The notes below the pieces were generated by a model. That model did not search any database. It was not told where the DNA came from and saw only the letters and a list, made by a program, of their open reading frames with translations. From NCBI RefSeq assembly GCF_000308475.2, contig NZ_BAFT02000032.1:1-64000 (forward strand): a DNA stretch of 64,000 nt, in the 5' to 3' direction. The first letter of the stretch is position 1; each line of letters opens with the position of its first letter. This DNA comes from Nocardia brasiliensis NBRC 14402. Its GTDB lineage: Bacteria > Actinomycetota > Actinomycetes > Mycobacteriales > Mycobacteriaceae. The translations under genes and the position numbers were made by a program. Of the stretch, positions 1,342-40,898 are shown one piece after another.

Positions 1342-2106
1342 GTGTATGAAAATCGATCAGGATTAGCTGTCGTGACGGCTTATCTCCGCAGTGAATCGCC
1401 AACCCTCGAACAGTTGCTCGATGACGCGGCATTAATGTCGTATGAACATCAAGAGCGCAGTATCGAAGTGCTCGGCGCGCACCGCTGGCATGTCACATAT
1501 GAGCCGCCATTATTCGAGTTCTTCGGCGATCATCCGTTGGCCTGTACGCGGTTTCACGTCCTCGGCACGGCCGCGCCCGGTCCGCGCAGCTGGCTGTGGA
1601 GCTGGGCCAACTACGACTGGTACCCGTCGGAGGTCACCGAACTCGCCCGGTCGGTGCGCGATTACGGTCTGCGCCACGGGATCCCGGAACTGCACACCGC
1701 CGAGATCCCGTTCGCGAAGCTGCCCGGCGCGCCCACCGAACCGAACCGGGTCACCTGGCTCATCGGTGAACTGTGCAAGGCGGTCTCGGGCAGCTGGACG
1801 TGGTACAGCTGCGATGTCGGCGGCGGCACCCGGCTCGCGGTCCTGATCGAACACCCCGAGCTGACCCCGCCCGCGCTCGATCTACTCAGCCTCATGCACG
1901 TGCTCAACGGCGTCTTCCGGCTCGAGCTGCCCGACCATCGACGGGCCATCCACAGCTACGCGGTGCAGCGTGGGCTCGCCGCCACCTTCACCGACGACGC
2001 GAGCAAACTCCTGCTCGCCGGTCCGGGTCTGGAGGTGGCCATCGCCTTCGACGCCGCGGGCCGCGTCACGGCGATGTCCTCCTCGCGGGCGGACAGCCTG
2101 GCCTGA
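1342..2106 (+). CDS. DUF6882-like protein
   Basis: A 254-residue cytosolic protein. The segment containing RSWLWSWANYDWYP is the tryptophan-rich core I associate with DUF6882/DUF6882-like proteins, whose function is unknown. There is no signal peptide or membrane segment. The start at 1342 is a GTG; a later in-frame GTG near 1372 is possible because no strong ribosome-binding site precedes 1342. The gene ends 67 bp before the T-box leader of the downstream tRNA synthetase and probably belongs to a separate transcript. Confidence 0.7.
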   Translation: MYENRSGLAVVTAYLRSESPTLEQLLDDAALMSYEHQERSIEVLGAHRWHVTYEPPLFEFFGDHPLACTRFHVLGTAAPGPRSWLWSWANYDWYPSEVTELARSVRDYGLRHGIPELHTAEIPFAKLPGAPTEPNRVTWLIGELCKAVSGSWTWYSCDVGGGTRLAVLIEHPELTPPALDLLSLMHVLNGVFRLELPDHRRAIHSYAVQRGLAATFTDDASKLLLAGPGLEVAIAFDAAGRVTAMSSSRADSLA

Positions 2107-2173
2107 AACACCGGGCCGCGCCGGGAAAATGACTGGCGCGGTCGCCGGTGGCCACTACCATCGAGAATGCGGC

Positions 2174-2324
2174 GCCGACGAGCGTGACGAACTCCGAGCC
2201 GCGTCGGCCGGTCACCGAGCTCAGAATCGACCAGCAGAGGCGGCGCGCCACGCGTCGCGAAGGTGTGGTGGCACCGCGACATACCCGATCGCCCACACCT
2301 CCCGGGGACGACAACCAGGAGGTG
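2174..2324 (+). promoter_or_regulatory. translational T-box riboswitch (Asp/Asn type)
   Basis: The T-box element GGTGGCACCGCG lies at 2267-2278. It forms a textbook antisequestrator: helix 2262-2268 with 2293-2299 (GGTGTGG/CCACACC), a 7-nt bulge TGGCACC at 2269-2275, then GCG 2276-2278 with CGC 2290-2292. The alternative fold pairs CACCTCC (2296-2302) with the Shine-Dalgarno GGAGGTG (2318-2324), hiding the start at 2331. In the bulge the variable base is C, which pairs with a G73 discriminator, as in tRNA-Asp and tRNA-Asn. A 7-bp hairpin at 2174-2180/2202-2208 could be a short Stem I; its loop holds both GAC (2186-2188) and AAC (2190-2192) as possible specifier codons. Confidence 0.88.
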
Positions 2325-2330
2325 ATTTCG

Positions 2331-3623
2331 ATGCCACGTACGCTCTGTGCGGCACTGCCCGCAGCCCTGCGAAAACCGGGTCCGGTGACCATCGAGGGCT
2401 GGATCCATCGGCGCAGGCAGCTCGCGAGCGTGAGCTTCGTCGTGCTGCGCGACCGCTCCGGACTGGCCCAGGCGGTGGTCACCGATCCCGCTGTGCGTCA
2501 GCAGGTTTCGGAACTGCCGGAGGAGACCGTGGTCCGGCTGACCGGAACCGCGAGCCGCAACGCCAAAGCGCCGGGCGGGGTTGAACTCGTCGACCCGGCC
2601 GTGCACGCGCTGAGCGCACCGGCCGCGGCGTCGCCGCTCGAGCTGTGGCGCCCCGAACTCGGCGTCACCCTGCCGGTCGCGCTGGACCACGCCGCGCTCA
2701 GCTGGCGCCATCCGACGCGACGGGCGGTGTGGCAGATCGCCGCCGCCTCGCTCACCGGTTTCCGGCGGCACCTCGACGGTGCGGGTTTCACCGAGGTGAG
2801 CACCCCTAAGATCGTCGGCCAGTGCGCCGAGTCAGGCGCGAATGTGTTCGCGCTGGACTACTTCGGAGCGCCCGCCTACCTGGCGCAGTCACCGCAGCTG
2901 TACAAGCAGATGCTCACCGGCGTCTTCGAGCGGGTGTACGAGGTCGGTCCGGTCTTTCGCGCCGAACCGCACGACACCGCGCGGCATCTGGCCGAATACG
3001 TCTCCCTGGACGTCGAATTCGGGTTCGTGCGCGACCACCGGGACGTACTCGCCCAGCTCCGCGCGACACTCGCGGCCATGCTGGAGGCCATCGCCGAAAA
3101 AGCCTCCGCGGCAGTCGAAACCGCGGGGGTGCGACTGCCTGTCGTACCCGAGGAGATCCCGGTCGTGCACTTCCGCGAGGCGCTCGAACTGGTCGGCGCC
3201 GCCGCCGACGAGCCCGACCTCGCGCCTGAACACGAGCGCTTCCTCGGCGCGTGGGCCAAGCAGCGCTACGACTCGGATTTCCTTGCCGTGGAAGGCTATC
3301 CGGCGGCCAAACGCCCCTTCTACACCCATCCGCAGCCGGACGACCCGCGTTGGACCAACTCTTTCGACCTGCTGTTCCGCGGGCTGGAACTGGTCACCGG
3401 CGGGCAACGCCTGCACAACCATGCCGACTACCTCGCCGCGCTGGCGGCGCGCCGTGCGGACCCTGCCGCGTACGACGCCTACCTGGCCGCGATGCGGCAC
3501 GGCATGCCACCGCACGGCGGTTTCGCCATCGGGCTGGAACGGTGGGTGTCGCGCCTCACCGAGGCCGACAACATCCGCCGGGCGGCGCTGTTTCCCCGGG
3601 ATCGCCACCGTCTGCAGCCCTGA
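2331..3623 (+). CDS. aspS: aspartyl-tRNA synthetase, archaeal/type 2 (possibly Asp-tRNA(Asn) forming)
   Basis: A 430-residue class II aminoacyl-tRNA synthetase that charges tRNA with aspartate. The N-terminal OB fold includes VTIEGWIHRRR. The AspRS signature QSPQLYKQ is present, motif 2 reads FRAEPHDTARH, and motif 3 is GLERWVSRLT near the C-terminus. The length fits the compact archaeal-type AspRS and not the long bacterial AspRS with its GAD insert that actinobacteria normally carry, so this is probably a second copy. The start at 2331 is set by a perfect AGGAGGTG eight bases upstream; the frame is open further upstream, but that part is the T-box leader. Whether it reads tRNA-Asp only, or also tRNA-Asn, cannot be told from sequence alone. 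Confidence 0.9.
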   Translation: MPRTLCAALPAALRKPGPVTIEGWIHRRRQLASVSFVVLRDRSGLAQAVVTDPAVRQQVSELPEETVVRLTGTASRNAKAPGGVELVDPAVHALSAPAAASPLELWRPELGVTLPVALDHAALSWRHPTRRAVWQIAAASLTGFRRHLDGAGFTEVSTPKIVGQCAESGANVFALDYFGAPAYLAQSPQLYKQMLTGVFERVYEVGPVFRAEPHDTARHLAEYVSLDVEFGFVRDHRDVLAQLRATLAAMLEAIAEKASAAVETAGVRLPVVPEEIPVVHFREALELVGAAADEPDLAPEHERFLGAWAKQRYDSDFLAVEGYPAAKRPFYTHPQPDDPRWTNSFDLLFRGLELVTGGQRLHNHADYLAALAARRADPAAYDAYLAAMRHGMPPHGGFAIGLERWVSRLTEADNIRRAALFPRDRHRLQP

Positions 3624-5273: not shown

Positions 5274-5840
5274 CTTGCGCTCGCCGGTCAGCGCGTCGAG
5301 CCGTTCGCCGAGCGCGTTCACCTGGTCCCGCAGGGCGATGAGGGTGTCGATGGGGTAGCCGACCGAGGCCATCACGGACTCGATCATCTCCCGCGCCTGG
5401 CGCTGCAGTGCGATACCCGCCTCGGTCGCGCGCAGTTCGACCGAGCGGCGGTCGTGCGCGCTGCGCACGCTCTCCACGAAACCGTGCGCCTGTAGTCGCT
5501 GGATCAGCGGCGACACGGTGCCGTAGTCGAGGCGTAGCTGTTCGCCCAGTTCCTTCATGGTCATCCCGGGCCGCTCCCACAGCGCGAGCAGCGCGAGGTA
5601 CTGCGGATACGTGATGTGCATCGCGTCGAGGAACGGCCGGTAGGCCGCTGTCATCGCGCGCGAGGTCGAGTACAGGGCGAAACACAGCTGGTTCGTCAGC
5701 GAGAGCAGGTCGTGGTCGGGATCCCCGGCGGTTGCGACGGTGCCGTGTGGTGCGGCCGGATCGACACGCACCGCTGCGGTGGGATGCGCTTGTTCGAACA
5801 TACCCTGCACTGTACGCATGGTGGACAGGGAATTTCTCAC
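5265..5840 (-). CDS. OhrR/MarR-family redox-type regulator
   Basis: A 191-residue winged-helix regulator. The segment TNQLCFALYSTSRAMTAAYRP closely follows OhrR, whose single N-terminal cysteine (here in QLCFALY) senses organic peroxides. The DNA-binding part has TYPQYLALLALWE and GEQLRLDYGTVSPLIQRL, where OhrR usually has LDSGTLTP. The GTG at 5840 overlaps the stop of the aminotransferase gene (GTGA), the same coupling as in the genes before it; ATGs at 5819 and 5801 are alternatives, since OhrR proteins usually start closer to the cysteine. It is the last gene of the five-gene operon and may regulate it in response to oxidation. No ohr peroxidase gene is nearby. Confidence 0.85.
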   Translation of the reverse strand: MRNSLSTMRTVQGMFEQAHPTAAVRVDPAAPHGTVATAGDPDHDLLSLTNQLCFALYSTSRAMTAAYRPFLDAMHITYPQYLALLALWERPGMTMKELGEQLRLDYGTVSPLIQRLQAHGFVESVRSAHDRRSVELRATEAGIALQRQAREMIESVMASVGYPIDTLIALRDQVNALGERLDALTGERKER

Positions 5841-6829
5841 CGTGCGGCCGCGATCACCGCCTCGGTTGCCGCGGTGTCGCCCACCGTGATCCTGATGCCG
5901 GTGGCGCAGTGTTTCACCTGGATCTCGGCGCCGGCGAAACCCACACGCAGCCGGTCGAGTTCGAGCGAATCGCAGCCGGTGAGGTAGACGAAGTTCGCGC
6001 TACTGGTCGGCACCTGATAGCCCAGTTCGCGCAGCCCGGTCGTGAGCCTGCCGCACTCGCGGGTGATCGTCGCGGTGCGCACCGCCAGTTCCGCCTCCGC
6101 GGCGTAGCAGGCGCGCACGCCCGCCTCGGCCAGGGCGGTCGTCCCGAAAGGCAACTGCCAGCGCCGGATTCGGGCCATGAGCGGCACCGAGCCGAGCGCG
6201 TAACCGACCCGCAGCGCGGCCAGGCCGTACGCCTTGGAGAAGGTGCGCACGACGATCAGGTTCGGATGGCGCGCGAGCAGCTCGGCGCTGCGCACCCGCT
6301 CGCTCGGCCGCACGAAATCGACATAGGCCTCGTCGAAGACCACCACGACCGACCGAGCAGTACGTTCCAGGAACCCCGAGAGTTCCGCGTGCCCGATCGC
6401 GGTGCCAGTCGGATTGTGCGGACTGCACAGCACCACGACGGCCGTCCGCTTGTTGACGGCCGCGGCCAGCGCGGGCAGATCCTGGTGCCCCGTTGAGGTC
6501 AAGGGGACTTCCACCACCCGGCCGCCGACCGTCGCGGTCAGCAGCGGGTAGCCGTCGAAGGTGGGCGTCGCCAGCACCACCCCCGCGTCCGGCGGCACGA
6601 ACTCCTGCAGAATGTGCATGATCACGCCGGTCGCGCCCGCGCCGACCACCACCTGCTCCGGCGGGTAGCCGAGCCGCGTCGCGATCAGCTCGGGCAGCCT
6701 GCGCGGCAGGAACTCCGGATACCGATTCGCCGCGCCGAGCGCCCCGGTCAGCGCCTGCCACACCGAAGGCAGCGGGCCGTACGGGTTTTCGTTCAAGGAC
6801 AGCCGGTGGCCGCGGTGCGCGGTGTGCAT
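5837..6829 (-). CDS. HisC-like PLP-dependent aminotransferase (class I/II)
   Basis: A 330-residue fold-type I aminotransferase. LNENPYGPLPSV at the N-terminus is the histidinol-phosphate aminotransferase group signature, SPHNPTG is the PLP/substrate loop, FDEAYVDF carries the PLP-ring aspartate, and TFSKAYGLAALRVGY carries the Schiff-base lysine. A true HisC is normally in the his operon. Here the gene follows a FabH-like ketosynthase by 12 bp and ends in a four-base overlap with the regulator, so I infer that it aminates a ketone made by the upstream enzymes of this operon. The substrate is unknown. Confidence 0.88.
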   Translation of the reverse strand: MHTAHRGHRLSLNENPYGPLPSVWQALTGALGAANRYPEFLPRRLPELIATRLGYPPEQVVVGAGATGVIMHILQEFVPPDAGVVLATPTFDGYPLLTATVGGRVVEVPLTSTGHQDLPALAAAVNKRTAVVVLCSPHNPTGTAIGHAELSGFLERTARSVVVVFDEAYVDFVRPSERVRSAELLARHPNLIVVRTFSKAYGLAALRVGYALGSVPLMARIRRWQLPFGTTALAEAGVRACYAAEAELAVRTATITRECGRLTTGLRELGYQVPTSSANFVYLTGCDSLELDRLRVGFAGAEIQVKHCATGIRITVGDTAATEAVIAAAR

Positions 6830-6841
6830 CAGCCGCGGTCC

Positions 6842-7864
6842 TCAGCGTCCACCCCAGCGCACCGCGGCGGCCGCCGCGAAATCCCCGGCATGCGCGAAAC
6901 CGGCGAGCAGCAGCAGCGATCCGGCGGGCACTTTACCGGCGCGCACCGCGTGATCGAGCGTCACCGGGATGCCCGCGGCGAACAGGTTGCCGCACTCGTC
7001 GAACGTGTCGGGGTGCCGGTCGACCGGAAGTTGCAGTGCGTCACGCCAATTGCGCAAGAAGGCCCGGTTCGGCTGGTTCGTCACCAGCAGGTCCAACTCG
7101 TCGGCCCGCACGCCGATCCGCCCGCATACCGCGTGTGCCACCTCCGGCACGATGCGATTGCCCCGGGCAAGCACTTTCGCGATCTTCGACTCGGTGAAGC
7201 CGACATGCATCTGGCCCGGACCCGCCTCCCAGTACTTGCGCGGCGGATCCGCGAGCACCGTCATCTGTCCCGCGTACTCCGGCAGATGCCGGGCTTCCAC
7301 GTCGAGAATCGGTGACTCACCGGACTTCACGAGCAGACCGACGCCCGCTCCGTCCCCGGGGATGGCGGCCTGCGGCTTGGACCGCACCTGCTCCTGGGTG
7401 AAGATCTGCCCCGCCGCGTTCTGCACGGTGATGATCAACGCCGCACGCGCGGCACTGCTCAGCAAGAGCTGCCTGGCGATCTTCATCGCGTAGACGAAGG
7501 CCACACACCCGCCGTTGTGCAGGTCGATCAGCCACTCCGGGGCGAGGCCGAGCCGCGCGGCAACCTCTCCCCCGTTACCGACGATGCCGAGCTCGGGGAT
7601 CTGCGTGTGCACGATGAGAACGTCTACCTCGCTGAGGAATTCGCTACCCCGGCGTTCGAGCATCGGCGCGATCGCCTGCTCCGCCATATCGGCGGGCGTC
7701 TCGCCGGGCGCGATGTGATGCCGGAACGGCGGGGACTTGAACATCGCGTTCGAGGTGTTGTCCGCGGGATCGGCGTAGCGGGCGAAATAGTCCGCGGCGA
7801 CCCGGTTCTTCGGCAGGTAGCTGGAAACGTCTGCCAGGCTTACGGTTTCGGTCGTCGTGCCCAT
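6842..7864 (-). CDS. FabH-like (KAS III) ketosynthase or acyltransferase
   Basis: A 340-residue thiolase-fold protein of the KAS III superfamily. The nucleophile is the cysteine of HNGGCVAFVYAM. At the catalytic His position of FabH (usually HQAN) the sequence reads NQPN, while the later Asn is kept (CGNLFAAGIP). Cys is therefore present but the His is replaced, which is more common among KAS III relatives that transfer acyl groups (CerJ-like) or condense unusual partners than among fatty-acid initiating FabH. The ATG at 7864 overlaps the preceding TGA by one base (TGATG), so the genes are translationally coupled. It probably acts on the product of the ThDP enzyme or supplies an acyl group to it. 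Confidence 0.85.
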   Translation of the reverse strand: MGTTTETVSLADVSSYLPKNRVAADYFARYADPADNTSNAMFKSPPFRHHIAPGETPADMAEQAIAPMLERRGSEFLSEVDVLIVHTQIPELGIVGNGGEVAARLGLAPEWLIDLHNGGCVAFVYAMKIARQLLLSSAARAALIITVQNAAGQIFTQEQVRSKPQAAIPGDGAGVGLLVKSGESPILDVEARHLPEYAGQMTVLADPPRKYWEAGPGQMHVGFTESKIAKVLARGNRIVPEVAHAVCGRIGVRADELDLLVTNQPNRAFLRNWRDALQLPVDRHPDTFDECGNLFAAGIPVTLDHAVRAGKVPAGSLLLLAGFAHAGDFAAAAAVRWGGR

Positions 7865-8520
7865 CAGTCCAGCCATTTCGGCTTGACCGGCTCGCCTTTG
7901 GCGTGCCGGTGCTCGCAGATCGCTTTCAGATTCCGCAGTTCCAGCAGGTGGCCCGCGTAGAAGAGATTCCAGAAATCCCCGACCCAGACCGGGCGACCCG
8001 GCGGGGCGGTGTCCGGGTAGCCGTTCTCGTCGTAGAACGGATGGTGACAGTTGGTCCACACGACCACCGAGCCCGGCTTGTTCAGCACCACCTGCGCGTC
8101 GAGCACGCGCATCAGATAGATCATCCAGAGGTGCTCGGATTGGTCCCAGGCACAGTGATAGTCGACCGTGCGGGCCGCGGCGTTGGCGACCGTGCGGGTG
8201 TAGATGCGGGTGTGCTCGCCGATCCGATCGTCGGACACCCACAGGTCCGGTTCGGCGGTGCGCTCGAAACCCCGCATGCTGTAGGTCCATTCGCACAGGC
8301 TGCGGGTATCGGACAGGTACTCGAACACCTCGTCGGGCGGGGCGGCGACGTACTCGTTGACGGTGCAGAACTGCCCGTAGACCTCGTCGTGCGGATACAC
8401 CGCGCGGGTCATGTCCAGGACGATCGGCATGCCTTCCTTGACGCTGATGTTCTCGATCCGATAGACGCCTGGCACTTCGACATCCGGGACCTCGATCGGC
8501 GCGGCGGCGGGTTCGGTCAT
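7864..8520 (-). CDS. SRPBCC-fold (START/Bet v1-like) protein
   Basis: A 218-residue protein. The central part (YVAAPPDEVFEYLSDTRSLCEW) is the typical start of an SRPBCC hydrophobic-pocket fold, used by polyketide cyclases, lipid carriers and ligand-binding proteins. A 50-residue N-terminal extension and a tail rich in His, Tyr and Trp (NCHHPFYDENGYPD) are unusual for simple SRPBCC proteins; the clustered histidines could bind metal. The ATG overlaps the stop of the ThDP enzyme gene (ATGA). From context it may bind or cyclise the intermediate passing between the ThDP enzyme and the ketosynthase. The exact reaction is unknown. Confidence 0.75.
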   Translation of the reverse strand: MTEPAAAPIEVPDVEVPGVYRIENISVKEGMPIVLDMTRAVYPHDEVYGQFCTVNEYVAAPPDEVFEYLSDTRSLCEWTYSMRGFERTAEPDLWVSDDRIGEHTRIYTRTVANAAARTVDYHCAWDQSEHLWMIYLMRVLDAQVVLNKPGSVVVWTNCHHPFYDENGYPDTAPPGRPVWVGDFWNLFYAGHLLELRNLKAICEHRHAKGEPVKPKWLD

Positions 8521-10316
8521 GCGTAGAGCTCCTTCAGGAAGGGGGCGAAGGGTGGGATTTCGTCTGGGTCGCAGCGGATTTCGAGGAACACCGGGCCGGT
8601 CTCGGTGGCGGTCGCGTGCAGTGCGGCCTCGAACTCGGCCCGCGTGTCCGCGGAATAGGCGGGGAGATGCGGGAACATGGCGGCCACCGCCGCGCCGATG
8701 CGCGCGGGTCCGAACCGGTTGTAGGTGTAATCGCCGGAGTAGTAGAGCTGTTCGCGGGTGACGCACATGGCGTGCGCGTTGTTGTTGAAGATCACGAACG
8801 TGACCGGCGCGTGGTACTCGACCGCGGTGTGCACCTCGTGACCGTGCATGAAGTAGGCGCCGTCCCCGGCGAGGACGAACGTGCGCCGCCGCCGGCCCAG
8901 CGCGCTGCCGATACCCGCGCCGAACGCATAACCCATGCCGCCCATGCCCAACGCGATCACGAAGCGGCCGCCCGGTGGCACCGGCAGGTGATGGACCGCG
9001 GCCGCGCCGGTGTTGCCCGCGTCGACCACCACGTCGGTGCCCGGCGTCAGGCGCGCGGCGATCGCGTCGAGGGCGTCGCGGTAGCGCACGCCGGGACCCG
9101 AAGCATGCGGAACCTCCAGTGGCGCAGGCACGATCGGCTCCCGCAGCACCGCATCGACCGCCGCCGACGCGGTCAGCTCGGCCAACCTGGTCCGCAGTGG
9201 ACCACACAGCCAGGCAGCTGTGCGCACGAAGGCGCGATCGGTGCCGATATGCCAGATCCGCGGGCACGCGGTGAGCGCGGCCTCGAGCCCCGCCCTGGCG
9301 AGCACGGGCAGCGGAGTGCCGACCACGACGCACAACTCGGCAGCAGCCAATAGCTCCGCTACCCGCGGATGCCCCATACTCCCCGCGATCCCCGCGAAGT
9401 GCGCGTGCCCGTTCGGAAAGACGTCTTTCGCGTCGGGCGTCACCGCCACCGCTGCCCCCAATGCCACTGCGGCAGCAAGCAATTCCCCCCGCGCGTCCGC
9501 CCGCGCAACCTCGGGTCCCGCGATGATCACGGTGCGCCACACACCCGCACGCACTGCGCCGTCGACCCGTCGCGCCTGGCCCCTTTGCGCCGCGCCTTCG
9601 CGGCAATCGCCCTTCGGCTCGGAGTCGAGCGCGCCGTCAAGCTGCACTCCGCCTTTACCCCGCCTCGCACCGTTTCCGGATGGTTCACCGCCAACAAGGT
9701 CGAGTGGCCTCGGTCCAGGGTCGATCGGCCAAGCTTCTTCGTCGGGCGCTTGCTGTGCCTGAACGTCCTTGGGGAGCAAGAGGACTGCTGGGCCGCCTGC
9801 TCGTGCGGCTTCGATCGCCCGGGTGACGACCTCGGTGACGTCCTCGGCTCGGTCCAGGCGCAGGCAGACTCGTGCGACGGTGCCGAACAGGCGTTCGGCG
9901 TCGATTCGTCCGTGCCCACCGCCGGTGTCCTGGAAGGCGCCGTGCCCTTCGAGGGGGCGCGGCGGCTGGCCGACCAGCGCCAGTACCGGTATCCGCGAGT
10001 CGAACGATTCACCCAGCGCGGCAACGAGATTCAGGGCCCCACCACCGGACGTCGCGACCACGATCCCAAGGCGGTTGGTGGTGCGGGCGTAGCCGTCGGC
10101 CATGGTCGCGGCACCGAACTCGTGTTTCGCGACGACGCCGGTGAGTGGCGCGGCGCTGCGATGCAGCGCATCGTAGACGTCCTCGATGTTCGCGCCGCCG
10201 ACCCCGAAGACATGATCGGTGTGCGCGGCGATCAGCTCGATGATGCGGTCGGCGACCGTTTTCCGGCATTCGACGGCGACGCCGTTCGTTTCCGAGATAG
10301 ATCGCGTGCGATTCAT
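8517..10316 (-). CDS. thiamine-diphosphate-dependent enzyme, acetolactate synthase-like
   Basis: A 599-residue ThDP enzyme with the usual N-terminal PYR, middle and C-terminal PP domains. The catalytic glutamate lies in AKHEFGAATMADGYAR, and the ThDP/Mg motif starts at GDGAYFMHGHEVH and ends in NNN. These enzymes decarboxylate 2-keto acids and join the resulting carbanion to another carbonyl, giving acyloins or acetolactate-type products. The stretch around residues 210-255, rich in Gly, Arg and Gln, is an unusual insertion between the PYR and middle domains. The ATG at 10316 is used; a TTG at 10325 is in frame. It is the first gene of an operon with SRPBCC, KAS III, aminotransferase and OhrR-like genes. 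It is too isolated from ilv genes to be IlvB. Confidence 0.85.
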   Translation of the reverse strand: MNRTRSISETNGVAVECRKTVADRIIELIAAHTDHVFGVGGANIEDVYDALHRSAAPLTGVVAKHEFGAATMADGYARTTNRLGIVVATSGGGALNLVAALGESFDSRIPVLALVGQPPRPLEGHGAFQDTGGGHGRIDAERLFGTVARVCLRLDRAEDVTEVVTRAIEAARAGGPAVLLLPKDVQAQQAPDEEAWPIDPGPRPLDLVGGEPSGNGARRGKGGVQLDGALDSEPKGDCREGAAQRGQARRVDGAVRAGVWRTVIIAGPEVARADARGELLAAAVALGAAVAVTPDAKDVFPNGHAHFAGIAGSMGHPRVAELLAAAELCVVVGTPLPVLARAGLEAALTACPRIWHIGTDRAFVRTAAWLCGPLRTRLAELTASAAVDAVLREPIVPAPLEVPHASGPGVRYRDALDAIAARLTPGTDVVVDAGNTGAAAVHHLPVPPGGRFVIALGMGGMGYAFGAGIGSALGRRRRTFVLAGDGAYFMHGHEVHTAVEYHAPVTFVIFNNNAHAMCVTREQLYYSGDYTYNRFGPARIGAAVAAMFPHLPAYSADTRAEFEAALHATATETGPVFLEIRCDPDEIPPFAPFLKELYA

Positions 10317-33499: not shown

Positions 33500-35262
33500 T
33501 TCTCGCCTCGCACCCGCAGCGTGCCGTCGAGGTAGGCGGTGCGCGAGGCCGAACGCTGAATCTTGCCGCTCGACGTGCGGGGAATCCCGCCGGGGCTCAG
33601 CAGCAGCACCTCGTGCACGCCGACGTCGTGCACCCGGAAGATAGCTTCGCGCACGGCGTTCCGCAGTTCCTGCGCCGTCGCGGTGTCGTCGGCCGGAATC
33701 CTGGCCTCGACCAGCACCACGATCTTCTCCTGCACGCCGACTTCGATGGAGAAGGCCGAGCAGCGCCCCGGCAGTACCAGCGGATGCGCCTGCTCCGCAG
33801 CGTCTTCGAGATCCGGCGGGTAGTAGTTGCGGCCGTCGATGATGATCAGGTCCTTGAGCCGGGTGGTCGGATAGACCTCCCCGTCGTGCAGGAATCCGAT
33901 GTCGCCGGTGCGCAGGTAGTACTTGCCGTCGCGCGGCGAGAGTTCGCCCCGGAAGGTCGCTTCGGTCTCCGCGGGCCGGTTGAAATAGCCGGAGCAGAGC
34001 GACGGCCCGTGCACCCAGATCTCGCCGAGCCGGTTCTCGGGCAGCGGCTCCCTGGTGTCCGGATCGACGATCTGCACCGCCGTGCCGGGCGCCGGGGCGC
34101 CGCCGCTGACGATGTCCGCGCCGTCCGGCGCGACCACCACCGATCCCGCGGCGAGCGCCGTGCGGTCCACTGTGACGGTCTGCACGCCGGACAGGGTGCG
34201 CCAGTTCACCGAGACCAGCAGCGTCGCCTCGGCCAGACCGTACCCCGCGATCAGGCTCGACTCGGACAGGCCGTGTCCGGCGAAGGCGGCGTAGAACTTC
34301 CGGATCGTGCTGACCCGCACCGGCTCGGCACCCGACAGGGCATAGCGCCAGCGGCTCAGGTCGATGCCGTCGAGTTCCTCGGGGCCGACCCGTTCGGCGC
34401 ACAGTTCGTAGCCCACGTTCGGGGAGGCGGCGAAGACCTGTGCGGGATGGTCGCTGATCGCCCGCAACCAGCGTTGCGGCCGGCGCAGGAACGAGGTGGG
34501 CGACATCTGAACCACGCCGTGGCCGTTGATGATCGGCATGATGACGCCGACCATCAGGCCCATATCGTGGAACAGCGGCAGCCAGCTGACGAAGCCGATC
34601 TCGTCCTCGGGGCCCACCCCGACGTGGTACATCATCTGGTAGGTCTGCCTGGCGTTGGCGAGCAGGCCGCGGTGCGGCACCATCACGCCCGCGGGGGTGC
34701 GGGTGGAGCCGGAGGTGTACTGCAGCAACGCGATCTGTTCCCGGTCGACCAGCACCGGCTCCCAGTCGGTCGCCAGCCGCGCGTTCACTTCGCCGGTGGT
34801 CACGATCAGCCGGGTCGTGTCGGTCGGCGAATTATCGAGCCACGCGGTCACATCGGTCAGTGCGTCGTCGGTGGTGACGAGGCAGGCCGGGTCGGCGTCG
34901 ACGCACACCGCGTCGATCCGGCCGTTGGAATTGTGCGCGCTCGGCGGATACAGCGGCACCGCGATGATGCCGGCGTACAGGCACCCGAAGAACGCTTTCA
35001 CGTACTCCAGGCCCGGCGGCAGCAGCAGCACGGCCCGGTCCCCCGGGTGCGCCACCTGGAGCAGCGTGGCCGCGTATGCCCTTGCCGCACGGTCGATTTC
35101 GGCGTAGGTGAGCGACTCCGTGACCCCGATCGCGGAGGTCGAATCGGGATAGCTCAGGAAGCTGTAGGCGAGCCGGTCCGGATGCTGGGCGGCCTGTCTG
35201 GTCAGCGCGCGCACCAGCGTGTCGTATTCGATATCGCCCCCGGTGAGCAGTGTCGTGGTCAT
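33496..35262 (-). CDS. fatty acyl-AMP ligase (FAAL)
   Basis: A 588-residue adenylating enzyme of the FAAL group. LLQYTSGSTRTPAGVMVPH is the nucleotide loop, SWLPLFHDMGLM follows, and the FAAL-type N-terminal part with PLYPP is present. The end (RTSSGKIQRSASR) has the conserved lysine. FAALs activate a fatty acid as acyl-AMP and load it onto a carrier protein, bypassing CoA. The probable acceptors here are the N-terminal ACP of the first PKS or the discrete ACP. The ATG overlaps the NRPS stop (ATGA). Confidence 0.93.
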   Translation of the reverse strand: MTTTLLTGGDIEYDTLVRALTRQAAQHPDRLAYSFLSYPDSTSAIGVTESLTYAEIDRAARAYAATLLQVAHPGDRAVLLLPPGLEYVKAFFGCLYAGIIAVPLYPPSAHNSNGRIDAVCVDADPACLVTTDDALTDVTAWLDNSPTDTTRLIVTTGEVNARLATDWEPVLVDREQIALLQYTSGSTRTPAGVMVPHRGLLANARQTYQMMYHVGVGPEDEIGFVSWLPLFHDMGLMVGVIMPIINGHGVVQMSPTSFLRRPQRWLRAISDHPAQVFAASPNVGYELCAERVGPEELDGIDLSRWRYALSGAEPVRVSTIRKFYAAFAGHGLSESSLIAGYGLAEATLLVSVNWRTLSGVQTVTVDRTALAAGSVVVAPDGADIVSGGAPAPGTAVQIVDPDTREPLPENRLGEIWVHGPSLCSGYFNRPAETEATFRGELSPRDGKYYLRTGDIGFLHDGEVYPTTRLKDLIIIDGRNYYPPDLEDAAEQAHPLVLPGRCSAFSIEVGVQEKIVVLVEARIPADDTATAQELRNAVREAIFRVHDVGVHEVLLLSPGGIPRTSSGKIQRSASRTAYLDGTLRVRGEK

Positions 35263-38200
35263 ACTCCGACCTCCTGTGGTGACGGCGCGGCGAGGAAGCC
35301 GACCTTGCGGAAGTAATCCAGGTAGCGGGTGAACAGGTCGTGGGCGACCGGCGGGCAGTGCACACCGACCTGTTCCAGCGCGGTGACCGCATCGTCGACC
35401 TCGAACTGGATCAGCGGCGTCAGCCCGTCACCGGTGTTCAACAGGCTCAGCACGCGGTAGGACGCCGAGCCCGCGCCCGCCTCGGCCGCGTGCGCGGCGA
35501 TCGCGGCACGCCACTCGTCGAGAGGCACGAGCCGCACCGGCGTGCCGCTCGCCCGCAGCCAGCCGACGGCGTCGGCGAAGGAACCCGGCGCGGGGTTGCG
35601 CACGTGGTAGATGTGCGTGCCGGGCCGGGTGTTGCGGGCCAGTTCGACCATGGCCGCGCCGGTGAAGTCGGCCGGCGCCAGATCCACCGGGAAGTCCACC
35701 TCGGGTGCGCGGCCGACCTCCTGGCTGGCTTTGACCAGCAGCCAGAAGAAGTCGCTGGTCTGGCAGGCGCCGGTACGGCTGTCCCCGCCGATGCGACCGA
35801 GCCGGAACACAGTGACCGGCAAGCCGCGCGCACCGGCCGCGCAGACCAGCCGCTCGGCGACCCACTTGCTGCGCAGGTAGCCCAGGGACAGTTGCGACGG
35901 GTCCTGCGCGGGCAGCCGTTGGCTGACCCGGCCGTCCACCGCATCACCGGGTCCGAGCACATACAGCGAGGACACGAAATGCAGTGGCGCACCGCTGTTC
36001 CTGGCCAGGGTGAGGAGTTCGTCGGTGCCGCGCACATTGGCCGCGGCCAGCACCTGGTACGGCAGCGCGAAATTCACGTGCGCGCCGTTGTGATAGATCG
36101 CCTCGATCGTGCGGCCGAGCAGCAGGAACTGCTTCTCGCTCAAACCGAGTCGTGGTTCGCCCAGATCACCGAGTACCGGCACGACCCGGTCGAACGCGGT
36201 ACGCGGCAGCTCATAGGTGTCGAAGGTCGCCGCGAGCCGGGCCAGGCCCGCCTCCGGGGTGTCCGCCCGGACCAGGCAGTGCACCCGGGATTCGGTGCGC
36301 TCCAGCAGTTCCCGCAGCAGGAACGCGCCGACGAAGCCGGTCGCACCGGTGAGCAGCACCTCTCCCGTTTCCGGCCGGGCGGTGGTCCACGGTCCAGCGG
36401 GCCAGGATTCGACGACGGCCGCCACCTCGGCGGCCAGGTCGATCGTGTCCTCCGCCGACGTCTCCCCCGCCAGCAGCGCCACCACACCGGCGACGGTCGG
36501 CCGGGCGAACAGCGAGCCGAGCGGAATGTCTTCGCCGAAGGTCTCTTTCAGGCGCAGGATGAGCTGCGCCGCGAGCAACGAGTGACCGCCGAGATCGAAG
36601 AAGTTGTCTTCCCGGCCGACCCGGGGAATGCCGAGCACCTGCGCGAAGACGCCCGCGACCCGCTGTTCGAGCGGCGTGCGCGGCGGCTCGTAGGCCACCG
36701 GGTTCCGGCGCAGCACCGGTGCGGGCAGCGCGCGACGGTCCAGCTTTCCGTTGGCGGTCAACGGGAATTCGTCCAGCACCAGCACCGCCGCGGGCACCAT
36801 GTGCTGCGGCAGCCGGCGGGCCAGGTGGGCCCGCACGTCGACCACGAGATCGTCGCGCGCCTTGACCCGCAGCGGATCCGAGACGATCAGATCGCCGGGC
36901 CATTCGGCGGCCCGCGCCGGCGCACCGGACAGTGCGACCTCCCAGCCGGTCGCCACGACGTCGTAGCGCCCGCCGGGGCGGCGCAGCGCCTCGATCCGGT
37001 ACGGCACCCGATCGGCGAGCGCGAGATAGTCCTCGGGGCTCACGCCGCCGGAATCGGCCAGCACGGCGCGGATCTGGGCGGCGGTCGCCCGGCCTCGCCG
37101 CAACTCCTCGACCACCGCGAGCGGTCCGGCCACCCGGGCGTCGAGCACATCGGTGACGAGCACGGCCGCGGGGCGGTCCTGCTCCAGCACTTCGGCCAGT
37201 CGCTGCGGCGTCGTCGTCGCGTCGAGCACCTTGGGCCGCACCGGAAGTCCGCGGGCGCCCGCGTACAGCACGGCGTCGTAGCGGAATCGGGACATCTCGT
37301 TGAGCTGCACACCGCGCTTGAGCCGCAAGCGGCTGCCGGTCAGCACCGGGCTCGCGGCGACGAAATCCTCGAAATACTTGGGTGAGATCACCAATTCGGC
37401 GTCCCGATCGAGCGCCGCGCGGACCGCGGGCGCAAGCTCGCTCGCACCCGCGGTCGGTGCGTTGGTCGCCTCGACCGTCGCGTGGAACGATTCGCTGAGC
37501 ACCAGATCCCGGACGTCGCCGACGAACAGCACGCCGTCGGGGGCGAGCAGCTCGGCTGCATCGTGCAGCACCCGGGTGAGGTACTCGGCGCTCGGAAAGT
37601 ACTGCACCACCGAGTTGATCAGCACGACATCGTAGGAGCCGGTGAGGTCGGCGGGCAGTTCGTCCGCGGCGCACAGCGCCAGCCGCACGTGTGCCAGCCC
37701 GGGATCGGGATCGACGATCTTCGCCCGGACGTTCTCGATGGCGGAGGCGGACACGTCGGTGGCGTCGTAGACCTCGCACAGCGGCGCCAGGCGGGACAAC
37801 AGCAGGCCGGTGCCGCAGCCGATTTCGAGAATTCGGCGAGGGACGAGCGAACGCACGGCCGCGACCGTCGCCTCGACCCACTCCCGCATGTGCTCCTCGG
37901 GAATGGCGGCATTGGTGTAGGAGCTGTTCCAGCCGGAGATGTCGAAATCAGCGTCGCCTTCACGCCCCTGCCGATAAGTGCTGTTGAACACGACCTGCCA
38001 GTTGGCGACCTGATCCTGTTCGGCGTCCGCCGCGTCCGTCGTCACGTCGCCCGGCGTGAAATAGGCGACGAGCGAGACGTTTCCGCCGGTGTCCTTGCGC
38101 GCCAGCACGACCGACTGGTCCACGCCGGGGTGCGCGGTGATCGCCGCCTCGATCTCGCCGAGTTCGATCCGGAACCCGCGCACCTTGACCTGCTGATCGA

Positions 38201-40898
38201 TCCGGCCCAGGTACTCCAGGTCACCGTCGGCGCGGCGGCGGGCCAGATCGCCGGTGCGATACACGCGGCGGCCGTCCAGCACGGCGCTCGCCACGAACCT
38301 TTCGGCCGTGAGTTCGTCGCGGTTGAGGTAGCCGCGGGCGACGCCGGGGCCGGACACCAGCATCTCCCCTGCCACGCCGTCGGGCACCGGCCGCCCCGCG
38401 GGGTCGACGATCAGCACCCCGAGGTCCGGCAGCGGCACACCGATCAGGCTGCCCGCCGCCGATTCCACGTCGGCCCTGGCGAGTTCGCGGTAGGTGACGT
38501 GCACGGTGGTTTCGGTGATGCCGTACATGTTCACCAGGCGTGCCGCCTGGCCGAACCGGTCGAACCACGGGGTGAGCGTGGCGAGGTCGAGCGCCTCGCC
38601 ACCGAAGATCACCCAGCGCACGGCGAGTTCGGTACCCGGCGCGCTCTCCAGCGCGCGCAGCAACTGGGTGAACGCGGACGGCGTCTGGTTCAGCACCGTG
38701 ACCTGTTCGCGCGCAAGCAGTTCCGCGAACTCGGCGGTGGACCGGCTCACCGAGCCGGGCACCACCACCAGACGGCCGCCGTAGAGCAGCGCGCCCCACA
38801 TCTCCCAGACCGAGAAGTCGAAGGAGTAGGAGTGGAACATCGTCCATACGTCCTGCGCGCCGAAGTCGTACCAGCGGGCGGTGGTCGAGAACAGCCGCAT
38901 CACATTGGCGTGCTCGATCACGACGCCCTTCGGCACCCCCGTCGACCCGGAGGTGTAGATGACGTAGCACGGGTCGTGCGGTTCGGCCTGCGCCAGCGGG
39001 AGATCGGGCACGGATTCCGCAGGCAGCTGGTCGATCAGCAGCAGGTCCGGACCCGCGGTCTCGGTCGCCGAGAGCAGCGAGCTGTGGCTGATCACCAGGC
39101 GCGCACCGGAATCGGCGATCATGAACTCGATCCGGTCCGCCGGATACATCGGGTCCAGCGGCACGTAGGCGGCACCGGCACGCAGCACGGCGAGGATCGC
39201 CACCACCACGTCGGCGGAGCGTTCCAGGTGAATGCCGACGAAGGACCCGCGATCGATGCCGCGCGCCCGCAGTCGGCGGGCCAATCCGTCTGCGGCGGCG
39301 GCGAGTTCGGCATAGGTCAGCGCGCTGTCGCCGAAGGTGAGCGCCACCGCCTCGGGCGTCTGGATCGCCTGGGCCGCGAACAGCTCGTGCAGCGTGAGTC
39401 GCGCCGCGGCGGCCGGGGCACACGGCAGCGCTGCGGCGAGCGCCCGCTGGCGTTCACCGGATTCGAGGAAGTCCAGTTCCGGGAGCGCAGTATCCGGTGT
39501 CGCGACCACCGCGGTCAGCAGCGCGACGAAGTGCCGGGCGATCGCGGACACGGTCGGCTCGTCGTAGAGGTCGACGTCGTATTCGAACGCACCCGCCAGT
39601 TCGGCGCCGACCTGCCGCAGGGTCACCAGCACGTCGAATTTCGTGGTGCCCGAATGCACTTCGACGTACTCGGCGTCGAGGCCGGGGATCGCGAGTTCGG
39701 GCAAACTGGTGTTCTGTAGCACCACGGCGGTGCGGAACAGCGGCGAATGGCTCAGTTCCCGGTCGGGGCGCACGTGTTCGACGACCAGGTCGAACGGGGC
39801 CTCCTGGTGATCGAACGCGTCGAAGACCACCCGCTGCTCGCGGGCCAGCAGTTCCCGGAACGTCGGCGCCCCGGACAGGTCGGTGCGCAAGGCGAGCGCG
39901 TTGACGAAGAACCCGATGAGCGGCTCGATCTCGGGCCGGGTCCGGCCCGCGATCGGGGTGCCGACGGTGATGTCCTCCGCGCCGGTGTAATACCGCAGCA
40001 GCGCTTTGAATCCCGCCATCAGCGCGATGAACAGCGTTGCGGGACGGTCGTGCACCCTGACCTCGTCGGCCAGGCGGCGCAGGCCGGCCAGCACCGGGGC
40101 CGGAATCGTGAACAGCACCCGCGCCCCGCGGTTCTCCGGTTCGAGCGCCCGGGGGCGATCCGGATGGAACGTCACCAGCGGCGGTTCGTCGCCGAGCACG
40201 CCGCGCCAGTAGTCGAGGTCGGCGCCGAACTTGTCGCGCTGCGCGAGATCCTGCAACCAGACGGCGTAGTCGGGGTACTGCAGCGGCAGTTCCGGCAGCT
40301 CGGGCGCGTGCCGTCCCGCGGTGAGATCGGCGTAGGCCGACATCAGCTCGGTGGCGAACACGCCGAGCGACCAACCGTCGGAGATGATGTGGTGCATCGC
40401 GACGGCGAAGATCGCGTCGTCCGCGCCGAGCCGCACCAGCAGCACCTCGACCAGCGGACCGGACAGGTCGAACACTGTCCGGCTGAACTGCTCGACCTGT
40501 GCCATCGCGTCGGCGAGCGGTTGCGTGGGGTCCAATTGCGCCGAGTTCACCACGGTCATCGGCAGCGGGGCCACCGGCCCGACCACCTGTACCGGAACGC
40601 CCTCGCGCACTTCGATACTGGTGCGCAGCGATTCGTGCCTGGCCACCACCAGCGACAGCGCGCCCTGTAATGCGGCGATATCCAGGTGGCCACGCAGGCG
40701 CAGCGCCAGCGGCATCGTGTACGTCGCCCGGTCGGGGAACAGCTGTTCCAGGAACCAGATCCGCTGCTGCGCGGCCGAAAGTGGCGCGGCCGCGGTGGGA
40801 TCGGGCCGGCGTGGAACAGCCGCGCGCGGCGTGCTGCCCGCGGCCCAGCGCCGCAGCAACTCGCGGCGGGAGGCGCCGGTATCGATGAGTTCAGGCAT
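35259..40898 (-). CDS. NRPS: C-A(Thr)-MT-PCP-TD
   Basis: An 1879-residue module. The condensation domain (MHHIISDGWS, about residue 170) has an intact HHxxxDG. In the adenylation domain (about 490-1380) the residues from SFDFSVWEMW, VLNQTP, VIFGGEA and NMYGITETTVH give the code DFWNIGMVH(K), the standard threonine code. An N-methyltransferase (EIGCGTGLLL near 1021) is inserted late in the A domain. A PCP (LGGHSLLAAQ near 1433) and a thioester reductase (LLTGATGFVGAFLL near 1518) end the chain. Predicted product: N-methyl-threonine added to the chain and released as aldehyde or alcohol. It overlaps the PKS gene upstream by 8 bp and is the last assembly-line gene. Confidence 0.95.
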   Translation of the reverse strand: MPELIDTGASRRELLRRWAAGSTPRAAVPRRPDPTAAAPLSAAQQRIWFLEQLFPDRATYTMPLALRLRGHLDIAALQGALSLVVARHESLRTSIEVREGVPVQVVGPVAPLPMTVVNSAQLDPTQPLADAMAQVEQFSRTVFDLSGPLVEVLLVRLGADDAIFAVAMHHIISDGWSLGVFATELMSAYADLTAGRHAPELPELPLQYPDYAVWLQDLAQRDKFGADLDYWRGVLGDEPPLVTFHPDRPRALEPENRGARVLFTIPAPVLAGLRRLADEVRVHDRPATLFIALMAGFKALLRYYTGAEDITVGTPIAGRTRPEIEPLIGFFVNALALRTDLSGAPTFRELLAREQRVVFDAFDHQEAPFDLVVEHVRPDRELSHSPLFRTAVVLQNTSLPELAIPGLDAEYVEVHSGTTKFDVLVTLRQVGAELAGAFEYDVDLYDEPTVSAIARHFVALLTAVVATPDTALPELDFLESGERQRALAAALPCAPAAAARLTLHELFAAQAIQTPEAVALTFGDSALTYAELAAAADGLARRLRARGIDRGSFVGIHLERSADVVVAILAVLRAGAAYVPLDPMYPADRIEFMIADSGARLVISHSSLLSATETAGPDLLLIDQLPAESVPDLPLAQAEPHDPCYVIYTSGSTGVPKGVVIEHANVMRLFSTTARWYDFGAQDVWTMFHSYSFDFSVWEMWGALLYGGRLVVVPGSVSRSTAEFAELLAREQVTVLNQTPSAFTQLLRALESAPGTELAVRWVIFGGEALDLATLTPWFDRFGQAARLVNMYGITETTVHVTYRELARADVESAAGSLIGVPLPDLGVLIVDPAGRPVPDGVAGEMLVSGPGVARGYLNRDELTAERFVASAVLDGRRVYRTGDLARRRADGDLEYLGRIDQQVKVRGFRIELGEIEAAITAHPGVDQSVVLARKDTGGNVSLVAYFTPGDVTTDAADAEQDQVANWQVVFNSTYRQGREGDADFDISGWNSSYTNAAIPEEHMREWVEATVAAVRSLVPRRILEIGCGTGLLLSRLAPLCEVYDATDVSASAIENVRAKIVDPDPGLAHVRLALCAADELPADLTGSYDVVLINSVVQYFPSAEYLTRVLHDAAELLAPDGVLFVGDVRDLVLSESFHATVEATNAPTAGASELAPAVRAALDRDAELVISPKYFEDFVAASPVLTGSRLRLKRGVQLNEMSRFRYDAVLYAGARGLPVRPKVLDATTTPQRLAEVLEQDRPAAVLVTDVLDARVAGPLAVVEELRRGRATAAQIRAVLADSGGVSPEDYLALADRVPYRIEALRRPGGRYDVVATGWEVALSGAPARAAEWPGDLIVSDPLRVKARDDLVVDVRAHLARRLPQHMVPAAVLVLDEFPLTANGKLDRRALPAPVLRRNPVAYEPPRTPLEQRVAGVFAQVLGIPRVGREDNFFDLGGHSLLAAQLILRLKETFGEDIPLGSLFARPTVAGVVALLAGETSAEDTIDLAAEVAAVVESWPAGPWTTARPETGEVLLTGATGFVGAFLLRELLERTESRVHCLVRADTPEAGLARLAATFDTYELPRTAFDRVVPVLGDLGEPRLGLSEKQFLLLGRTIEAIYHNGAHVNFALPYQVLAAANVRGTDELLTLARNSGAPLHFVSSLYVLGPGDAVDGRVSQRLPAQDPSQLSLGYLRSKWVAERLVCAAGARGLPVTVFRLGRIGGDSRTGACQTSDFFWLLVKASQEVGRAPEVDFPVDLAPADFTGAAMVELARNTRPGTHIYHVRNPAPGSFADAVGWLRASGTPVRLVPLDEWRAAIAAHAAEAGAGSASYRVLSLLNTGDGLTPLIQFEVDDAVTALEQVGVHCPPVAHDLFTRYLDYFRKVGFLAAPSPQEVGV

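Follow-up and report, generated by a model that had tools for sequence, protein, structure and literature searches.

A predicted translational T-box of reduced architecture ahead of a second aspartyl-tRNA synthetase gene in Nocardia brasiliensis

Can a T-box stand in front of an aspartyl-tRNA synthetase (AspRS) gene in an actinobacterium, and if so, which tRNA would it sense and by which of its parts? The question is raised by a leader at 2169-2324 (+) of the window, by which we mean the whole 64,000-nucleotide stretch of Nocardia brasiliensis NBRC 14402 DNA analyzed (contig NZ_BAFT02000032.1, positions 1 to 64,000), ahead of the second AspRS gene, aspS2 (2331-3623). Actinobacterial T-boxes have been reported before ileS (PMC1262725, PMC2494555; these and the papers below are cited for the portions of their text that were available). 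Four T-box classes are described, in which tRNA binding is augmented by the IDTM, an S-turn or both; class II is glycine-specific and class III needs Stem II (PMC10482949). A truncated Stem I is reported to bind tRNA hardly at all without Stem II (PMC7583486). Our reading, which we hold to be very probable, is that the leader is a translational T-box riboswitch of reduced architecture controlling the second AspRS, with a mechanism proposed from its anatomy.

Gene, leader anatomy and modules not found

The aspS2 product was assigned as an archaeal-type aspartate--tRNA(Asn) ligase by NF003483 (Table 1) and scored 359.2 bits against TIGR00458, just short of the cut-off of 368.4. A bacterial-type AspRS is encoded elsewhere in the genome (L004; NF001750, 841 bits, cut-off 443), which bears out the preliminary description of aspS2 as a second, archaeal-type AspRS gene. 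Alongside the two AspRS genes, the genome carries an asparagine synthetase A-type protein (PRK06462) at C96, L003 1426-2427 (+), matched by NF005052 with 433.6 bits (cut-off 368). Asparagine synthetase of the A type (PRK06462) is a paralogue of AsnRS. Besides two weak unassigned matches (C89, C22), a protein search of the same genome gave no AsnRS-like match. The distribution of aspS2 is patchy, with matches in 19 of 150 Nocardia genomes. Directly 5' of aspS2 lies a DUF6882 gene (window 1342-2106, +); 19 other Nocardia loci were searched, and 10 have this gene in the same position (L018 and L095 being one locus).

Further along the window, large NRPS genes with condensation, adenylation, carrier, methyltransferase and reductase-type (NAD_binding_4) domains occupy 35262-49169 (-). 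At 5837-10295 (-) a hisC-like aminotransferase, a KAS III-like protein and a thiamine-diphosphate enzyme related to acetolactate synthase adjoin one another, each scoring below the cut-off of its best family. No sign was seen of a tie between aspS2 and the NRPS cluster, some 30 kb off, and the neighbours of aspS2 are common to up to 10 Nocardia loci.

Table 1. Features of the aspS2 leader and gene in the window.
Feature	Position or pairing	Strand	Basis or remark
-10-like hexamer TACCAT	2156-2161	+	TANNNT kept upstream of Stem I in relatives
Stem I, ultrashort, 34 nt	2169-2202	+	pairing in Nocardia alignment and in wider Stem I alignment
Stem I outer helix, 5 bp	GCGGC 2169-2173 / GCCGC 2198-2202	+	
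Stem I K-turn-like bend	bulge 2174-2176; GA 2177-2178 facing GA 2196-2197	+	sequence reading only
Stem I inner helix, 3 bp	GAG 2180-2182 / CTC 2192-2194	+	
Stem I apical loop CGTGACGAA	2183-2191	+	
Predicted specifier GAC (Asp codon), in apical loop	2186-2188	+	kept in aspS2 leaders
Putative Stem IIA/B-like pseudoknot	2204-2232	+	hairpin TCGG 2204-2207 / CCGA 2215-2218
Putative pseudoknot loop pairing	GGTC 2210-2213 / GACC 2229-2232	+	
Purine-rich flank AGAG and Stem III	2236-2258; Stem III 2240-2247 / 2251-2258	+	
Antisequestrator	2261-2300	+	helices A1 and A2 around T-box bulge
Helix A1	AGGTGTGG 2261-2268 / CCACACCT 2293-2300	+	no mismatch
T-box bulge TGGCACC	2269-2275	+	between A1 and A2
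Helix A2	GCGA 2276-2279 / TCGC 2289-2292	+	no mismatch
Sequestrator, 7 pairs	CACCTCC 2296-2302 / Shine-Dalgarno GGAGGTG 2318-2324	+	within 2296-2324
aspS2 start codon	2331	+	
aspS2, archaeal-type aspartate--tRNA(Asn) ligase, 430 aa	2331-3623	+	NF003483, 520 bits (cut-off 353)

The leader has the parts of a translational T-box listed in Table 1. The bulge between two exact helices, from which the preliminary description had started, was found free of mismatches, and the purine-rich flank matches the RRRxG-Stem III pattern (PMC7583486). The very short Stem I described earlier was also found, as an ultrashort hairpin, beginning at 2169 and not at 2174. A helix of 2174-2180 with 2202-2208 was tried as Stem I and rejected: it is perfect in the window, yet only 86.3% of its cells are paired in the Nocardia alignment, with zero covariation, and it was beaten by the adopted Stem I, the two helices of which are paired in 98.9% and 100% of cells. 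Of 26 leaders (18 Nocardia and 8 Intrasporangium-type), 25 have a TANNNT motif 4-9 nt 5' of Stem I, against 0.74 expected from mononucleotide shuffles. The aspS2 transcript would begin near the first base of Stem I, and since the -10-like motif lies just 5' of it, there is hardly any room for a longer one.

The leader had been called a complete translational T-box. Translational it appears to be; complete it is not, with neither IDTM nor Stem II recognisable. The AGAGAG-type distal Stem I motif (IDTM) was not found in any of the 18 Nocardia leaders, and Stem I at 34 nt is not the long Stem I with distal IDTM of class II. A Stem II domain with S-turn, by which class III is defined, was likewise not found in the window leader, which has only the small putative pseudoknot between Stem I and Stem III, nor do the other Nocardia aspS2 leaders provide it. 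The usual layout is present in the same genome before ileS (L001; assigned with 509.7 bits from a 489-aa piece, below the whole-protein cut-off), where a full domain with AGTAGAA and a GTGAG/CTCAC pseudoknot was found.

It is unlikely that the aspS2 leader is an ordinary class III T-box with short Stem I, as before ileS, and a Stem II in disguise, the hairpin or pseudoknot for example serving in its place. The pseudoknot does have the IIA/B topology, and in a relative, L109 of family f4, a Stem II with GTAGAA is apparently present; Stems I and III are nevertheless only 31-39 nt apart in the 18 Nocardia leaders, against a Stem II domain of about 70 nt in Nocardia farcinica ileS (PMC7583486). 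An AGTAGA resembling the S-turn strand occurs just 5' of Stem III in 4 of the 18 leaders, but it is missing from the other 14 and, where present, it abuts Stem III without a partner strand, and was rejected as an S-turn. The organism's own ileS leader shows what a full domain looks like. Furthermore, eight leaders of Intrasporangium, Terrabacter, Humibacillus and Flexivirga have just 14-16 nt linking Stem I to Stem III, and only 77-80 nt from the start of Stem I to the T-box bulge. This leaves no room for the pseudoknot either, and it too seems to be absent there. In seven of the eight, from Intrasporangium, Terrabacter and Humibacillus (L009, L010, L011, L013, L014, L015, L016), the bulge seemingly reads UGGCACA instead of UGGCACC; the Flexivirga leader (L012) is the one without this apparent change.

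Pairing and alternative folds among Nocardia leaders

A T-box leader was found ahead of aspS2 in all 18 distinct Nocardia leaders compared, which is well beyond chance for the same motif before the same gene. An aspS2 match was obtained in 19 of the 150 Nocardia genomes searched, and 18 of these supplied the leaders; the nineteenth, G027, has only a 3' fragment of aspS2. Over the stretch compared, L008 and L103 are identical, and so are L018 and L095, each pair joining a leader of the genus to one from a named record (Nocardia terrae and Nocardia colli, respectively).

Conservation of the paired arms in relatives, on which the preliminary description had staked its reading, was observed throughout this alignment. 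Of the 644 cells of the ON-state structure, 97.4% are paired, and sliding the pairing partner by 1-3 columns as a control left just 31-45% paired. Double-sided changes occur at 7 of 36 ON-state pairs, an extent reached by 3 of 500 shuffles; the 27 cells with double changes and the covariation score of 0.150 were not reached in any of 500, while the 20 further pair types were equalled by 51. With respect to the single elements, Stem III is paired in 92.3% of cells, with double changes at 4 of 8 pairs, and A1 and A2 in 99.3% and 100%, one A1 pair being doubly changed. The pseudoknot hairpin is paired in 97.2% of cells with one covarying pair; its loop pairing, also at 97.2%, shows no covariation because it is invariant save for one misaligned row. 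When Stem I alone was aligned over 29 sequences (20 distinct, Intrasporangium-type included), 95.5% of cells were paired and double changes were seen at 3 of 8 pairs, a number reached by 6 of 500 shuffles. The covariation score was reached by none of 500 shuffles and the further pair types by 108, and the outermost pair is broken in 7 of the 20 distinct sequences.

The competing fold that would hide the Shine-Dalgarno sequence, proposed in the preliminary description, was confirmed as a seven-pair sequestrator in predicted folds, mutually exclusive with the antisequestrator structure. Its cells are 99.2% paired, without covariation because it is nearly invariant. When the free region from Stem III to the Shine-Dalgarno was folded, the predicted minimum-energy structure contained at least 5 of 7 sequestrator pairs, and so was this OFF state, in 17 of the 18 Nocardia leaders. 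Energies of the helices taken alone were lower for ON than for OFF in the 15 of 18 sequences evaluated (window -29.0 versus -24.2; L089, L100 and L102 left out), the free minimum being OFF. When the whole leader is folded from its own sequence alone, the result differs from the proposed structure, and the structural case therefore rests on comparison.

Specifier, discriminator and the tRNA sensed

The preliminary description had noted both GAC and AAC in the loop and left the tRNA open. GAC indeed lies in the apical loop, and comparison settles the choice in its favor: at the specifier place, 97 of 98 actinobacterial aspS2 leaders carry GAC in the apical loop and one (L098) carries AAC. In one of the 98 rows, of type II (below), GAC was read by eye, the automated reading being CGA. 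The AAC of the window forms the 3' edge of the loop CGTGACGAA and continues into the helix GAG/CTC that closes it; long-Stem-I relatives do not keep AAC as a triplet. As a specifier of the window it was ruled out by the GAC of 97 of 98 leaders and by its place at the loop edge.

The organism's own tRNA-Asp gene has anticodon GTC and G73. Both its tRNA-Asp and tRNA-Asn genes have G73, which fits the variable C of the bulge (UGGC) as had been proposed; the bulge of the ileS leader in the same genome is UGGU. A serS leader of the same kind with long Stem I (L166 of G646; gene 173-1462, -) has TCC at the place of GAC, reading GAATCCACTCCCGAG where the AspRS leaders L144 and L146 read GAAGACACTCCCGAG. 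By its sequence, L166 is a natural swap of specifier along with gene, from GAC to TCC. With GAC in 97 of 98 leaders, TCC before serS and G73 matching UGGC, the best reading is therefore that GAC is the specifier and tRNA-Asp the tRNA sensed.

That the leader would sense tRNA-Asn, or tRNA-Asp together with tRNA-Asn, is quite improbable. The enzyme type, named aspartate--tRNA(Asn) ligase, would charge both, both have G73, and GAC could conceivably form a G-U pair with the tRNA-Asn anticodon; the specifier is, however, described as forming three Watson-Crick pairs (PMC7583486), and the near-uniform GAC speaks against it, the AAC of the Nocardia leader L098 speaking for it. L098 (2797-2948, -, genome G155) is itself a Nocardia aspS2 T-box whose nearest relative, L088, has GAC, and it may have moved from tRNA-Asp to tRNA-Asn.

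With tRNA-Asp as the ligand, the following course of events is proposed from the anatomy. The leader would start at Stem I, the apical loop of which would offer GAC for pairing with the tRNA-Asp anticodon GUC. If this tRNA is uncharged, its free 3' end (GCCA) would pair with UGGC of the bulge and hold the antisequestrator, withdrawing CACCTCC from the Shine-Dalgarno sequence, and translation of aspS2 would be on. With charged tRNA-Asp the antisequestrator would be lost, CACCTCC and GGAGGTG would pair, and translation would be off. The aspS2 product would thereby be an AspRS held in reserve, to be made when the bacterial-type enzyme fails to keep tRNA-Asp charged.

Distribution, architecture and meaning

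A model, R1, was built from the 18 Nocardia leaders. It scored 174.4 bits on the window, with a single other match in the genome at E<=1 (21.2 bits), and it matches 55 of 68 other loci examined outside the window. In 394 genomes of the class, R1 at E<=0.01 gave matches in 23 and the AspS2 protein in 21, 18 genomes having both, five the RNA only and three the protein only. The RNA stands before a bacterial-type aspS in G560 and G717, before another archaeal-type AspRS in G608 and before serS in G646; the fifth, G473, matched with 33.1 bits, no T-box motif being seen nearby, and is probably background. A further background match, with 28.5 bits, lies antisense to another gene; since background reaches about 35 bits, weak R1 matches prove little. 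In the second family (that of G701) R1 matched 56 of 245 genomes, and in family f4 3 of 17. At L159 (G717) and L161 (G560) the bacterial-type aspS lies behind a related short T-box, and the AspS2 search gave no match at E<=1e-100.

The Rfam model RF00230, proposed earlier as a check that would count against the reading if it failed, did not recognize the leader: no match at the gathering score was obtained in the whole window, and none at the leader even at E<=10. At E<=10 over 13 loci, four of five long-Stem-I leaders gave 52.8-63.8 bits (L189 none) and the organism's own ileS leader 39.5, all below the gathering score of 93, and the short leaders L002, L101, L107, L178, L109, L142 and L016 gave no match. 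As the own ileS T-box likewise falls under the gathering score, RF00230 is not decisive and was not treated as defining. By its sequence the aspS2 leader is a T-box on all criteria save the Rfam score, and it belongs in neither class II nor class III as published.

The 98 actinobacterial rows were typed by motif, length and hand placement, with no structural alignment behind the types. A long Stem I with a Stem II region was found in 35 (type I, defined by long Stem I and long distance and including L144 and L146 with a much shortened Stem II) and a long Stem I without Stem II in 14 (type II). Short Stem I occurs with Stem II in two rows and without it in 21 Nocardia-like rows, 18 rows with other helices and no S-turn, and eight minimal rows. 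L107 and L108 were placed in type IV, long Stem I and Stem II being missing, though a pseudoknot is not evident. The 14 type II rows, all Asp-specific, are L179-L184, L186, L188-L190, L192, L197, L204 and L206.

A quick AspS2 tree of 103 rows (SH-aLRT only, with long-branch warnings; L203 left out, its protein being incomplete) places the rows without Stem II, save L017, in one group of 61 with support 99. This group also takes in L109, one of the two rows with short Stem I and Stem II, and the minimal rows adjoin the long-without-Stem-II rows L181, L183 and L190. The types change 11 times on the tree (least possible 6; shuffled mean 59.7), and reduced forms are spread over several lineages. 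Tree and type distribution fit a loss of Stem II that was followed by repeated losses of distal Stem I. This is the most likely order, though L109 and L017 do not simply fit into it.

A decaying T-box, past tRNA binding and with aspS2 weakly or constitutively expressed, is very hard to credit. Two modules of well-studied T-boxes are absent and aspS2 is patchy in Nocardia, as decay would have it, but what is left of the element is conserved, compensatory changes included, across 18 distinct leaders, reduced forms recur in several lineages of the tree, and the bulge, specifier or K-turn should be the first to go in a decaying element. We return therefore to the T-box of reduced architecture, and on balance lean toward regarding it as a fifth architecture, in which nothing but the 3' discriminator and a 34-nt hairpin, K-turned and bearing the specifier, would capture tRNA-Asp. 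There would be neither IDTM nor S-turn, only a small pseudoknot in Nocardia, gone in Intrasporangium, Terrabacter, Humibacillus and Flexivirga. The AspS2 family would then display a dismantling series in natural examples, Stem II being present or absent behind a long Stem I and likewise behind a short one.

Among known systems, the class III ileS T-box of Nocardia farcinica and Mycobacterium tuberculosis shares with the aspS2 leader a short, K-turned Stem I that carries the specifier in its apical loop, as well as Stem III, antisequestrator, Shine-Dalgarno sequestration and a IIA/B-like pseudoknot; the aspS2 leader differs in lacking Stem II and S-turn, in GAC instead of ATC, in UGGC instead of UGGU and in its gene. 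The class II glyQS T-box of Bacillus subtilis also has no Stem II domain, but has a long Stem I with IDTM and is transcriptional and glycine-specific (PMC10482949). The 14 type II leaders are closer to glyQS in layout, but Asp-specific. The TBDB has its own class II (translational) covariance model, made for actinobacterial translational T-boxes (PMC7778990). A T-box on one of several (three) aspS copies is known from Clostridium acetobutylicum (PMC2494555); that, however, is a T-box of Firmicutes, and the available text of the same paper cites actinobacterial T-boxes before ileS only. In the open-access literature, of which our coverage was partial, no account was found of aspS2 T-boxes in Actinobacteria, nor of T-boxes that lack IDTM and Stem II alike; priority is not established.

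Published models, in the text available, hold codon-anticodon pairing too weak alone and in need of help from the IDTM, from the S-turn of Stem II or from the two together (PMC10482949, PMC7583486), and from this rule of assisted binding the aspS2 leader departs. Natural T-boxes with neither module offer a direct test of what a minimal tRNA sensor is and may disclose another grip on tRNA. The Asp-specific long-Stem-I leaders without Stem II indicate that this layout is not confined to glycine, and the reduced leaders tested escaped the Rfam model, which matters for annotation. For the organism, a spare AspRS under the control of tRNA-Asp suggests a response to AspRS inhibition or to Asp shortage.
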